Of a stretch of 64,000 bases of DNA, positions 53,565 to 58,168 are shown piece by piece. Location of the stretch: NCBI GenBank assembly GCA_029269725.1, contig JARJHS010000002.1, positions 558,001 through 622,000 on the forward strand, in the 5' to 3' direction. The notes beneath the pieces were generated by a model. That model saw nothing but the letters and a program-made list of their open reading frames with translations, made no database searches and had not been told where the DNA came from. Source of the DNA: Pollutibacter soli. Lineage in GTDB: Bacteria; Bacteroidota; Bacteroidia; Chitinophagales; Chitinophagaceae. The position numbers and the translations under genes were made by a program. Every line of letters starts with the position of its first letter. Positions within the stretch are counted from its first letter, which is position 1.

Positions 53565-54362
53565 TCAAAACAGGCTCTGTTGCGGCTGGGAAAGTTCCGG
53601 ATATGAATAAGGTGCTGTCGGGTCTTCACTCTCTCTGAAATCTTTCGCTATCGTATATGCTTCCATTGCTGATTCCGGAAGCTGATATCTGGCCAGTTCC
53701 CTGATCTGATTTTCGGTTAGGCCTTCCTGTATCCACTGCCATGCAAGTTCATCCGGCAGGATAACTGGCATCCTTTTCTTTTTGTTATGGATCTGCTCCA
53801 TCAAAGGATTCGCGGCCGTAGTCAGAATGGCAAAACTATTGATCATCTCACCTGATTCCTGGTCCGTCCACGGCTGCCAGATTCCTGCCATAAAAAAATA
53901 CTCTTTATCCTTCAGCGTAATGCGGTAAGGATAAGTACTTTCTTTTTTTGCTCCCGGACTTTTATAATGCCGCCACTCATAAAATCCGGAAGAAAGTACA
54001 AGACATCTTCTTTTCAGAACAGCCTGTTTGTAGGTGACTTTGTCAAGCACTTCTTCACCAATGGCATTCAATGTGTTTCTTGGCGGATCTATTTTTCCCG
54101 TTTTTGGATTCAACCCGCCTTTCCGAAAATGTTCAAGCTCTGATTGTGTTTTAAGGTAAAACGGAATCAGCTCCCAGTGCATCATCACCAATTCAAAGTC
54201 ACCACCACCTTCCTTCAATTTTATAACTGGCCAGTTACCAAATGCAAAACCGCTTTGCATTGGAATTTTCAGCTGAATATCATACTGCAGAATTTCTTTT
54301 TCAATTTTATTCAGCCTGATATGCTCGGCACGTTTTACAATTATCCCATTATAGAAACACAT
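53565..54362 (-). CDS. SRAP-family (YedK/HMCES-like) DNA-protein crosslink sensor
   Basis: A 265-residue protein. The catalytic Cys2 (MCFYNGIIV), the conserved NAIGEE (replacing the more common NARxE), GFYEWRHY and the His-containing IHNKKKRMPVILP (usual pattern IHxRMPVIL with a short Lys insert) identify SRAP. It forms a thiazolidine crosslink with abasic sites in single-stranded DNA and protects them. It lies 96 bp from the divergent tadA and 2 kb from umuDC, in a stretch rich in damage and stress genes. No copy of the umu palindrome is upstream. Confidence 0.92.
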   Translation of the reverse strand: MCFYNGIIVKRAEHIRLNKIEKEILQYDIQLKIPMQSGFAFGNWPVIKLKEGGGDFELVMMHWELIPFYLKTQSELEHFRKGGLNPKTGKIDPPRNTLNAIGEEVLDKVTYKQAVLKRRCLVLSSGFYEWRHYKSPGAKKESTYPYRITLKDKEYFFMAGIWQPWTDQESGEMINSFAILTTAANPLMEQIHNKKKRMPVILPDELAWQWIQEGLTENQIRELARYQLPESAMEAYTIAKDFRESEDPTAPYSYPELSQPQQSLF

Positions 54363-55707: not shown

Positions 55708-55737
55708 AGCCGTAGCATTATTGCTGCGGCTTTGTTT
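55708..55737 (+). terminator. Intrinsic terminator of the superoxide dismutase gene
   Basis: Stem AGCCG-T-AGCA / TGCT-G-CGGCT (10 bp with one G.T pair), loop TTAT, then TTTGTTT. It ends at the stop of the convergent 2H-like gene. Confidence 0.8.
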
Positions 55738-56362
55738 ATGGATACAACGGAAACACATTTACGATTTCTTCTGATGCATCACCAGCTCCCGTCAGTTTTA
55801 TCAACACCAGGTTGTAGACAGTAAAAGAATCAAAAAAATCTTCTGACAACTGTTGGCGGATGAAGTCAGTCCATTCCCGACGGGATTCTCCATTCGTTAA
55901 AAAGCAAACCGGCTTTTTTGTCCATTTGAGGTATCCGGAACCGTTAGTCACTATATAATTTTCAATCACCTGCATGCTATTAATCAGTTTCGTCACCGGT
56001 TCGGGATTCATCACGCGCAGGTAGAGTGGATGATTCGGATGCGAACCGAAATTGTTCAACTGCAGATCGAATCGGTTATGACTGTTGCATACTCTTTGTA
56101 TCCACCGGATCAAAGTATCTTCCATCAATTCGCGACCTTCAAAAGACGCAACCTCGATATAGGGGCGAGCGAGTATGTTCATTCCGGAAGGACTATTTCC
56201 CTTAATTGACTTTGCCAGATCCCTGATCCTTGCGCCGCCATCTCCTTCAGGAAATATCACCAGTTTATAAGCAGAGTATAAAGCGATAGAAGGCAACAGA
56301 CGGAAGCTGGCAGGTACTCCGGTAATCGGATCTACCTGTAATTTTTTAGACAGATTTACCAT
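55736..56362 (-). CDS. 2H-phosphoesterase-like (2'-5' RNA ligase-like) protein, motifs degenerate
   Basis: A 208-residue cytosolic protein. Its layout follows the LigT/2H fold: a first strand motif at NILARPYIEVASFEG (about 80-94), then FDLQLNNFGSHPNHPLYLRVMNPEPVTKLINSM, a second strand motif at WTKKPVCFLTNGES and the closing strand FTVYNLVLIKLTG. The two HxT/S catalytic motifs expected at these points are PYIEV and PVCFL, so both catalytic His are absent. It is divergent from umuD with a 20-bp palindrome between them. Function is unknown; the assignment to 2H rests on pattern, not on a search. Confidence 0.6.
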   Translation of the reverse strand: MVNLSKKLQVDPITGVPASFRLLPSIALYSAYKLVIFPEGDGGARIRDLAKSIKGNSPSGMNILARPYIEVASFEGRELMEDTLIRWIQRVCNSHNRFDLQLNNFGSHPNHPLYLRVMNPEPVTKLINSMQVIENYIVTNGSGYLKWTKKPVCFLTNGESRREWTDFIRQQLSEDFFDSFTVYNLVLIKLTGAGDASEEIVNVFPLYP

Positions 56363-56386: not shown

Positions 56387-56406
56387 TTTAGTATAAATTT
56401 ACTAAA
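56387..56406. promoter_or_regulatory. Palindromic operator-like site between 2H-like gene and umuDC
   Basis: TTTAGTA - TAAATT - TACTAAA: perfect 7-bp arms around a 6-bp spacer. It sits 25-45 bp upstream of the 2H-like gene and 30-49 bp upstream of umuD, overlapping the expected -33 region for umuD (whose -7-like box is AAAATTTG at 56422-56429). This fits binding by a dimeric repressor of an SOS-type system. Confidence 0.6.
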
Positions 56407-56435
56407 GAAATTAGCATTTTCAAAATTTGTTTTTT

Positions 56436-56867
56436 ATGAATGGAGAAATCATTTACAGTGCAGCCTTTTCAGGCACGAAAACATTCAGGCAGCAGCAGGT
56501 TCACACAGCAAATGCAACAGGTTTTGGCGCCGCTGCCGACGACTATGCCGAAAAAGATATCGATCTGAATGAGCAATTAATAAGGAATAAACCGGCAACT
56601 TTTTTTATGCGTGTGTCAGGTGACGCGATGACGGGCGCCGGAATATTTGCAGGTGATGTTGTCATTGTTGACAGAAGCATTACCCCACATTCGGGCCAGG
56701 TGATTATTGCTGCTCTCGACGGAGAAATGCTGATACGGCGATTTGAAAAATCATTTAATAAAATCAGGCTCTTACCCGAAACAAAAAATCTTGCCCCCAT
56801 CGAAGTTGACCCTTTCGCCGATTTTACGGTGTGGGGTGTTGTCACTTATGTTATTCATCGCCTTTGA
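56436..56867 (+). CDS. umuD: UmuD-like (S24/LexA-fold) polymerase V subunit, catalytic residues replaced
   Basis: A 143-residue protein from the ATG at 56436 (MNGEIIYSAAFSGTKTF). The UmuD fold is clear: ATGFGAAADDYAEKDIDLNEQLIRNKPATFFMRVSG, AGIFAGDVVIVDRSITPHSGQVIIAALDGE and FTVWGVVTYVIHRL. In active UmuD the nucleophile Ser is in GDSM and the general base Lys in the VKRL element, 37 residues later. Here these read GDAM (Ala64, codon GCG) and LIRRF (Arg101, codon CGG). Self-cleavage is therefore not expected. umuC follows 8 bp later. Confidence 0.88.
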   Translation: MNGEIIYSAAFSGTKTFRQQQVHTANATGFGAAADDYAEKDIDLNEQLIRNKPATFFMRVSGDAMTGAGIFAGDVVIVDRSITPHSGQVIIAALDGEMLIRRFEKSFNKIRLLPETKNLAPIEVDPFADFTVWGVVTYVIHRL

Positions 56868-56875
56868 TACTTTAT

Positions 56876-58168
56876 ATGTACGCCATAGTCGATTGTAATA
56901 GTTTTTATTGCTCCTGCGAACGGGTTTTTCGGCCGGACCTGCAAACCAAACCGGTTGTTGTATTAAGCAATAATGATGGTTGTATCATTTCGCGCACGGA
57001 CGAAGCCAAGGTTGCAGGAATCGGGATGGCGGTGCCTTATTATCAATATAAAACGCAGATCGAAAAGGCAGGTGTCGCCGTATTTTCTTCCAATTATTAT
57101 CTCTATGGAGATATGAGCCGAAGAGTGATGGACACCTTACGGTTTATTGTCAATGAAGGTGTTGAAGATCGTGTGGAAGTGTATTCGGTAGATGAAGCTT
57201 TCATCCGCCTCGATCATATTCCCGATACTTCTCTGAATGAATATGCACACCGGTTAAAAACAGTTGTTGAACAGTGGACAGGTATTCGTGTGTCCGTCGG
57301 CATTGGGCCCACCAAAGTGCTCAGCAAGACGGCTAACAGACTTGCGAAGAAAAATCCCGGAAGCAGCAGAGGTGTACTGATTTTAAAGACGGAAAAAGAA
57401 ATCCGTGACGCACTCGAATCGACATATGTTGAAAGTATCTGGGGTATTGGTGGTCGTTATGCAACAAAACTAAAAGAGGAGTTTGGAATAACTACCGCCT
57501 GGCAATTGCGACATGTACCGGAAGAGTGGGCAAGAAAACAATTGGGAGGAGTAGTTGGTGTGCGTCTTTTAAGGGAACTGGGTGGCGAGCCTGCGCTGGA
57601 AATGAAGGATCCACTGGAGAAGAAAAAGATGATCGCGACTACCAGAATGTTTGGTGCGCGTGTGCAAACCCTCCAGCCCTTAAAAGAAGCTGTGGCGACT
57701 TATACTGCGCGCGCAGCTGAAAAGTTGCGGCGTCAGCATTCAGCTGCGTCATCAATAGACATTTTCGTGGTAACGAATGGATCAGATGACCAATTGTACG
57801 AGTATCATCCAAAGACTGACCATCGTTATTTTAACCTGCCAAGTCCGAGTTCGGTTACACATGAACTTATCGGTTATGCAATGCCGCTGGTGGACGAACT
57901 TTTCCGCGAGGGCGTAAAATACCTGAAAGCGGGAGTGATCCTTGGCGGAATCGTACCTGAGAATTCAGTCCAGGCAAATCTTTTTTCAGAGATCTCCGCA
58001 CCTAAAGCAAATAAGCTGATGGAAGTGATGGATAATGTCAATTTCAGTATGCGTGGCGATAAGGTCAGGTACGGCGCGACAGGCCTCACCAGGCACTGGC
58101 GGATGCGCCAGGATCTCCGCAGTAACCGTTACACCACGCGATGGGAAGAGCTTTTTGAAGTGAAGTAA
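56876..58168 (+). CDS. umuC: Y-family DNA polymerase V catalytic subunit UmuC
   Basis: A 430-residue translesion polymerase from the ATG at 56876 (MYAIVDCNSFYCSCERVFRPDL). The catalytic Asp/Glu blocks (MYAIVDCNSFY and VYSVDEAFIRL) are intact, followed by IRVSVGIGPTKVLSKTANRLAKK, an HhH-like WGIGGRYATKLKEEFG and a C-terminal little-finger domain. It is active-looking, unlike its UmuD partner. It forms an operon with umuD and lies near SRAP and the 2H-like gene. Confidence 0.94.
   Translation: MYAIVDCNSFYCSCERVFRPDLQTKPVVVLSNNDGCIISRTDEAKVAGIGMAVPYYQYKTQIEKAGVAVFSSNYYLYGDMSRRVMDTLRFIVNEGVEDRVEVYSVDEAFIRLDHIPDTSLNEYAHRLKTVVEQWTGIRVSVGIGPTKVLSKTANRLAKKNPGSSRGVLILKTEKEIRDALESTYVESIWGIGGRYATKLKEEFGITTAWQLRHVPEEWARKQLGGVVGVRLLRELGGEPALEMKDPLEKKKMIATTRMFGARVQTLQPLKEAVATYTARAAEKLRRQHSAASSIDIFVVTNGSDDQLYEYHPKTDHRYFNLPSPSSVTHELIGYAMPLVDELFREGVKYLKAGVILGGIVPENSVQANLFSEISAPKANKLMEVMDNVNFSMRGDKVRYGATGLTRHWRMRQDLRSNRYTTRWEELFEVK

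Follow-up and report, generated by a model that had tools for sequence, protein, structure and literature searches.

What becomes of a mutagenic DNA polymerase when its partner subunit can no longer cut itself? In the textbook account, mutagenic Pol V is held off until DNA damage persists, and what releases it is the cutting of UmuD to UmuD′. We analysed a stretch of 64,000 nucleotides from Pollutibacter soli (the window, numbered from its first letter) in which a umuD gene lies just ahead of umuC and encodes a protein with neither residue of the Ser-Lys dyad that performs this step. An earlier note on this DNA had pointed out both substitutions and proposed that the protein is fixed in one state, is cleaved by another protein, or acts as a regulator. 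Read from the sequences of relatives, what goes beyond that note is that the trait is family-wide, that the arm once released by cleavage has turned into a conserved element, and that its conservation tracks the presence of a matching umuC. Our preferred interpretation, to which we give a probability of about 0.6, is that this UmuD is a working Pol V subunit whose self-cleavage has been abolished for good, with control exerted by transcription and perhaps by RecA.

A UmuD without its catalytic dyad

The umuD gene (56436 to 56867, + strand) encodes a protein of 143 residues with an S24 fold but no Ser-Lys dyad, as judged from its open reading frame (ORF) and from Pfam, NCBIfam and HMMER matches. 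The frame runs from an ATG at 56436 to a TGA at 56865-56867; the longest ORF opens three codons earlier at a TTG, and the ATG is taken as the start on the basis of a Met there in 150 of 152 relatives from the clade described below. PF00717 (E 3.4e-24) was the sole Pfam domain found, with no DNA-binding domain and an N-terminal extension of just 28 residues. The NCBIfam model for UmuD, PRK10276, scores 133.3 bits (cut-off 110), the LexA model TIGR00498 reaches 68.2 bits (cut-off 110.95) and aligns only along its C-terminal half, and the HumD model reaches 70.5 bits (cut-off 120). The start codon of umuC, at 56876, is 8 nucleotides beyond the umuD stop. With its S24 domain, the curated model, the umuC neighbor, and an SOS box upstream, the protein is by sequence a UmuD, and both its identity and its place before umuC stand as the earlier note had them.

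HMMER alignments to E. coli UmuD chains cover 106-114 residues and have no gap up to the position of the catalytic Lys. Ala64 (GCG, 56625-56627, + strand, within GDAM) falls on Ser60, and Arg101 (CGG, 56736-56738, + strand, within LIRRF) falls on Lys97, although one of the reference chains, 8gmt_B, itself has that Lys mutated. The two residues are 37 apart, so that frame and alignment agree on the substitutions that had been noticed by eye. The former cleavage site, placed by the same alignment and by comparison with relatives, is Thr28-Gly29 (56517-56522, + strand), which coincides with Cys24-Gly25 of E. coli and bears out the reported exchange of Cys-Gly for Thr-Gly. The window protein thus resembles E. 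coli UmuD in its domain family and length, in the sequence of its core, in standing ahead of umuC, and in having an SOS box upstream. It lacks the hallmarks that go with cleavage, namely the Ser-Lys dyad, an Ala-Gly or Cys-Gly site, and a docking motif of the TFPLF or LPxF type, and in its clade a Thr-Gly and a new conserved arm are found instead.

Loss of the dyad across a clade

The simplest explanation of such a protein would be an artefact, whether a sequencing error, a pseudogene, or a gene in decay. Searching 36 genomes of the same genus gave a match in 28, of which 27 (68-78% identity) were fetched and the 28th (34% identity) was left out. Arg occupies the Lys position in 27 of the 27 orthologues and Ala the Ser position in 26, the exception being a Ser in L004. 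Strains of named species show the same state, and the gene bears the mark of purifying selection. Sequencing error, which the earlier note had discounted from the codons, is ruled out by these orthologues, the pseudogene is rejected on the same counts, and an artefact of any kind is barely conceivable.

Further relatives came from searching 396 genomes that belong to the order and from scanning named contigs (best 80 of 481 relatives), giving an alignment of 198 rows that includes the window, its identical copy L001, and E. coli UmuD. At the nucleophile and base positions these rows comprise 130 Ala/Arg, 25 Ser/Arg, 2 Thr/Arg, 1 Cys/Arg, 1 Asn/Arg, 2 Asp/Asp, and 37 Ser/Lys. On the tree, the window falls in a clade of 156 rows (155 different proteins), every one of which has Arg and none Lys, so that aligning homologues from Chitinophagaceae and other Bacteroidota, as the earlier note had advised, only broadened its claim. 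The nucleophile position in the clade holds Ala in 128 rows, Ser in 25, Thr in 2, and Cys in 1, and among Arg rows it has switched at least 12 times on the tree, the kind of turnover to be anticipated at a site that has lost its catalytic role. By contig titles, strains of Puia, Flavihumibacter, Segetibacter, Pinibacter, Paraflavitalea, and Agriterribacter, cultured species among them, belong to the clade, which suggests that it corresponds to the Chitinophagaceae. Outside it are 42 rows, 37 of them Ser/Lys; the other five (L150, L151, L153, L136, and L154) are probably further losses.

A second tree was built from core columns only, with the arm and dyad excluded, for 100 rows including other orders. 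It places 38 clade members on one side of a branch with a Shimodaira-Hasegawa-like approximate likelihood ratio test (SH-aLRT) value of 86; the columns are few and many forks are not resolved, and the 38 rows were chosen at less than 72% mutual identity and exclude the five rows with decayed arms discussed below. In other orders of the class, 80 genomes gave a match, and the UmuDs at the 20 best of these loci all have Ser, Lys, and the site AGFPSPA; the cleavable state is therefore likely to be ancestral.

The substrate side of the reaction

The counts that follow concern the substrate rather than the catalyst. Those over 152 clade rows omit the Arg rows L117, L118, L143, L150, L151, and L153 and the window itself (identical L001 is kept), and those over 155 rows omit L150, L151, L153, and the window; the 36 cleavable rows include E. 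coli and omit L031. At P1, 34 of 36 cleavable relatives have Ala and 146 of 152 clade rows have Thr, and P3 has gone from Val, Ile, or Leu (36/36) to Asn or Asp (145/155). The docking pattern [LIVMF]P[FYLIM], whose position corresponds to T14-F-P-L-F18 of E. coli UmuD, occurs in 31 of 36 cleavable rows versus 2 of 155 clade rows. In E. coli, the triple substitution T14A L17A F18A leaves the arm undocked and the protein not cleavable (PMC5342242). Downstream of the site, FPSPA has mostly become F-G-A-A-A, and around it A27 (150/152), G29 (151/152), and F30 (152/152) are conserved in the clade. In a single clade, then, the base, P1, P3, and the docking motif have all been altered together, and most members have a changed nucleophile as well: the substrate half of the reaction has gone along with the catalyst. 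Among the three readings of the earlier note, a UmuD fixed in one state fits these joint changes best.

Could some members still cut themselves, slowly with a Ser-Arg pair or with another Ser/Lys pair that has taken over? The Ser in 25 of 156 clade rows speaks for this, as does Lys52 (codon 56589-56591), which is present in 153 of 156 clade rows but in only 3 of 37 cleavable relatives, where Pro is usual (31/37). Ala at the nucleophile position in 128 of the 156 argues the other way. The sole Ser, Cys, or His found in more than 90% of clade rows is Ser81 (153/156), which cleavable relatives also have (33/37), so no clade-specific nucleophile is seen; a different nucleophile within UmuD was rejected for this reason. 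The docking pattern is absent from 153 of 155 rows and hence from nearly all Ser-Arg rows too, and the Ser-Arg rows listed have Thr-Gly, L118 excepted. Residual or alternative self-cleavage is very improbable, and we regard the loss of self-cleavage in the clade as close to certain.

A rebuilt N-terminal arm

The arm of the clade (codons 1-28, 56436-56519, + strand) carries, in the clade alignment, a new conserved motif in place of the docking motif. It reads Y-x-G-S/T-K-x-F/Y-x-Q...ANATGF, with Y/F11, G13, S/T14, K15, F/Y17, Q19, V/I22, A25, N26, A27, and T28 as its residues. Tyr at P18, Gly at P16, Lys at P14, Gln at P10, Ala at P4, Asn at P3, Ala at P2, and Thr at P1 are each present in 82-97% of 155 clade rows. 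When an arm is scored by how many of these 8 positions it retains, conservative swaps counting as matches, 141 of 151 clade rows reach 8 (the five decayed arms set aside), and cleavable rows reach 2-4.

Raw variability is a poor control here because cleavable relatives span a wider diversity than clade members do, and the arms were therefore compared at matched core identity. Arm identity averages 0.57 in the clade versus 0.26 in cleavable relatives at 45-55% core identity (157 cleavable pairs), 0.60 versus 0.36 at 55-65% (38 pairs), and 0.57 versus 0.41 at 65-75% (15 pairs). The pooled ratio of nonsynonymous to synonymous change (dN/dS) for the arm is 0.094 over 51 disjoint pairs, at a proportion of synonymous differences (pS) of 0.67 that is near saturation; core dN/dS is unusable with saturated synonymous sites, and only one cleavable pair had sequences similar enough for the arm test to be applied. 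On this alignment evidence, the arm has been kept at full length and rebuilt instead of decaying.

Arm conservation and the presence of umuC

The partner gene, umuC (56876-58168, + strand), encodes a 430-residue Y-family polymerase identified by ORF, Pfam, and NCBIfam, with IMS, IMS_C, and C-terminal DUF4113 domains and a clamp-type motif, QANLF. Its Asp6, Asp106, and Glu107 occupy the positions that we take to be catalytic in the Y family. Asp6 is kept in 137 of 137 relatives and the other two in all 132 alignments that reach them, so the polymerase is under selection.

A umuC on the same strand follows 136 of the 157 Arg-type umuD genes with enough sequence to tell. For the other 21, 16 genomes were searched for umuC (L200, L204, L209, L226, and L231 were not among them), and with L150 excluded as lying outside the clade, 15 clade members could be compared. 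For ten of them a matching UmuC (52-60% identity) is encoded at another place, divergently in five (G121, G171, G174, G227, and G426), and all ten keep the arm, with scores of 6-8 and the site ATGF in seven and ANGF in three. In the remaining five (L114, L116, L117, L118, and L143) no matching UmuC was found, the best Y-family matches being a UmuC of 40-45% identity or matches of 26-27%, and the arm scores 2-3, like that of cleavable relatives. These five still keep the SOS box and the Arg, and three of the genomes carry a cleavable umuD beside a distant umuC (L147, L148, and L158). With A[T/N]GF as the arm test, decay in 5 of 5 without a matching umuC versus 0 of 10 with one gives a Fisher p of 0.0003, which suggests, at the level of sequence, that arm conservation goes with a matching umuC.

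The surroundings of umuD vary in other ways. Behind umuD in L079, L101, and L103 (at 176-208 nucleotides), L093 (directly), and L074 (at 649 nucleotides) is a gene whose product by eye resembles a radical S-adenosylmethionine DNA-repair protein of the SplB type; umuC is found on the opposite flank of umuD, in divergent orientation. In L161, L184, L195, L197, and L208, about 620-740 nucleotides separate umuD from umuC.

An arm kept alongside its polymerase could also serve restraint. In this alternative, full-length UmuD is a locked inhibitory form that binds UmuC and the replication machinery, as is reported for uncleaved UmuD of E. coli, and slows replication or restrains UmuC, little or no lesion bypass depending on it. 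Full-length E. coli UmuD, S60A included, disrupts binding of alpha to the clamp and UmuD′ does not (PMC5342242), and an arm conserved together with a matching UmuC would suit such a role. This is the strongest rival because E. coli requires cleavage and its S60A protein is poor in UV mutagenesis. Against it, the catalytic residues of UmuC are intact in every alignment long enough to show them, the window's own genome has no other UmuD that was found to activate UmuC, and the E. coli-type docking motif is absent from the arm. We consider a locked inhibitor unlikely.

SOS control and a separate repressor

If cleavage no longer gates the polymerase, where might the damage signal act? An SOS box (CTAA-AGAAA-TTAG, 56402-56414, + strand) ends 21 nucleotides before the umuD ATG; it matches CTAA-N5-TTAG exactly and is the only exact match in the window. 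This is the SOS box of many Bacteroidetes including Chitinophagaceae, where an S24-family repressor keeps its dyad (PMC8565304). Counted over Arg rows with at least 100 nucleotides upstream (157; L013 is too short), and with expectations from mononucleotide shuffles, an exact box precedes 152 of 157 Arg-type umuD genes (1.1 expected) and 152 of 154 within the clade; L043, L070, L150, L151, and L153 have none. Cleavable umuD genes have it in 10 of 36 cases (0.2 expected). Promoter and terminator scans were at chance level. Judged by its box, the window's umuDC operon is predicted to be under SOS control.

Two neighbors may be noted in passing. A gene for an SOS response associated peptidase (SRAP) is situated at 53565-54362 on the - strand, 2 kb before umuD, and SRAP-like proteins have been linked with UmuC-like polymerases (PMC12926913). 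Divergent from umuD is a 208-residue ORF (55736-56362, - strand) for which neither Pfam nor NCBIfam gave a match at E 0.001.

When the window's own genome was searched with PF00717, one other S24 protein only was found, a helix-turn-helix (HTH) repressor of 251 residues, L002, with Ser138, Lys177, the cleavage site AAGY, and an SOS box that begins 37 nucleotides before its ATG; a second, cleavable UmuD was not found in this genome. Repressor matches occur in 58 of 60 genomes of the family, and among the best 30 (this genome included), Ser and Lys are present in 30 and an exact box in 20. The Bacteroidetes CTAA-N5-TTAG system is thus mirrored both in the box before the operon and in a similar HTH-S24 repressor in the genome.

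The repressor is also one candidate for cleavage in trans, in which it or a housekeeping protease would cut at or near ANAT-GF so that UmuD′ is still made. ANATGF is itself conserved, as the near-invariance of A27, G29, and F30 attests, and the S60A form of E. coli UmuD is open to cutting in trans when it is part of a heterodimer (PMC5342242). However, the repressor, the sole other S24 protein found, has AAGY rather than TGF as its own site (other protease families were not searched), and conservation of the whole arm would be needless for a discarded peptide, cleavable arms being variable even at equal core identity. Cleavage by another protein, the second reading of the earlier note, is weakened by this result, and we think it decidedly unlikely. 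Its third reading, a regulator, is unsupported in the DNA-binding sense because no domain beyond S24 was found.

How an uncut UmuD would serve Pol V

The preferred reading, a working subunit that is never cut, would run as follows. The damage signal would strike the separate S24 SOS repressor, which would cleave itself and release umuDC. Full-length UmuD would then join UmuC directly, and its 28-residue arm would stay in the polymerase complex for good and would not act as a removable pro-peptide. The arm of E. coli UmuD′ is modelled in a cleft of UmuC, and the longer arm here would probably lie in that cleft or reach past it, permanently filling and extending the site. The posttranslational switch of E. 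coli Pol V would be absent, with control by transcription and perhaps by RecA binding. The uncleaved form would in this way take the activating role, and the clade's UmuD would switch on UmuC for lesion bypass. A more specific version holds that the family dropped the RecA-driven cleavage switch and rebuilt the arm as a UmuC-dependent part, with full-length UmuD2C as the lesion-bypass enzyme and SOS control purely transcriptional; we put this at even odds.

Several observations weigh against this reading. Pol V activation in E. coli needs UmuD cleavage, and uncleavable S60A UmuD, in a form without the first residues, leaves UV mutagenesis greatly reduced (PMC5342242), so an uncleaved UmuD that aids synthesis would differ from the model case. 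Ser is still found at the nucleophile position in the 25 clade rows counted above, and an unrelated protease may remove the arm. With strict ATGF as the arm test, the three ANGF members of the ten fail and the Fisher p is 0.026; the five rows with decayed arms span only four genus codes, and few independent lineages stand behind the comparison. Arg101 is kept in those five rows too, and UmuC therefore does not explain its conservation. Of 123 UmuC columns conserved in both groups, 9 are switched between them, and 4 of these 9 are near the catalytic carboxylates (p 0.026), a weak clustering that divergence of the clade alone could give. Lastly, an AlphaFold prediction of UmuD with 73 relatives had a mean predicted local distance difference test (pLDDT) score of 44.9 and lends no support to contact between arm and UmuC.

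Known systems and further losses

Phage P1 HumD, an armless UmuD′-like protein, has no need of self-cleavage either, but the window's UmuD differs from it in keeping a full, conserved 28-residue arm. UmuDAb of Acinetobacter, a repressor with a DNA-binding domain, is likewise derived from UmuD with a changed role; unlike UmuDAb, the window protein has no dyad and no DNA-binding domain was found in it. Within the wider superfamily, SipA of Streptococcus pyogenes has a signal-peptidase fold without the Ser-Lys dyad and is still used (PMC4049620), a natural loss of the same kind in a membrane-anchored protein of another family that acts in pilus assembly. A LexA-like fold without the catalytic base has also been described, apparently in phage 186 CI (PMC12984324); there, as here, a LexA-like domain lacks the canonical active site, but the protein is a phage repressor and not a polymerase subunit. 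The portion of PMC8565304 available to us does not discuss dyad loss in UmuD, and searches of the open-licence literature gave no account of a full-length UmuD lacking the dyad, which is weak evidence of absence. This survey suggests that dyad loss with retention of the protein has precedents in the superfamily, whereas no uncleavable UmuD of full length, with a conserved arm and fixed throughout a family, was found in that literature.

The five dyad-less rows outside the clade differ among themselves. L151 (1401-1769, + strand, genome G186) is a UmuD′-like ORF with Ala/Arg, a Met-Gly exactly at the old cleavage site, and a stop codon just upstream; it is situated among cleavable relatives on the tree and is, by sequence, an independent, pre-cut solution to losing cleavage. 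L136 (G193) and L154 (G089), of genus code g85 and family code f8, have Asp/Asp in place of the dyad, similar arms, and adjoining umuC genes with catalytic residues, and their loss is probably independent. L153 (Asn/Arg with an ATGF site) and L150 (Ala/Arg, a short arm, and no adjoining umuC) are on long branches and their placement is unsure.

Significance

A large family that has given up cleavage and yet keeps the SOS box makes the purpose of that cleavage testable, and the same family can test whether uncleaved UmuD is able to serve a polymerase. The two jobs of S24 cleavage are separated here, since an SOS repressor of the self-cleaving type is kept by the very family whose UmuD is not cut. 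The replaced arm provides a natural set of sequences for finding which arm features inhibit UmuC and which support it. Taken as a whole, the clade suggests a control of Pol V unlike that of the textbook case.
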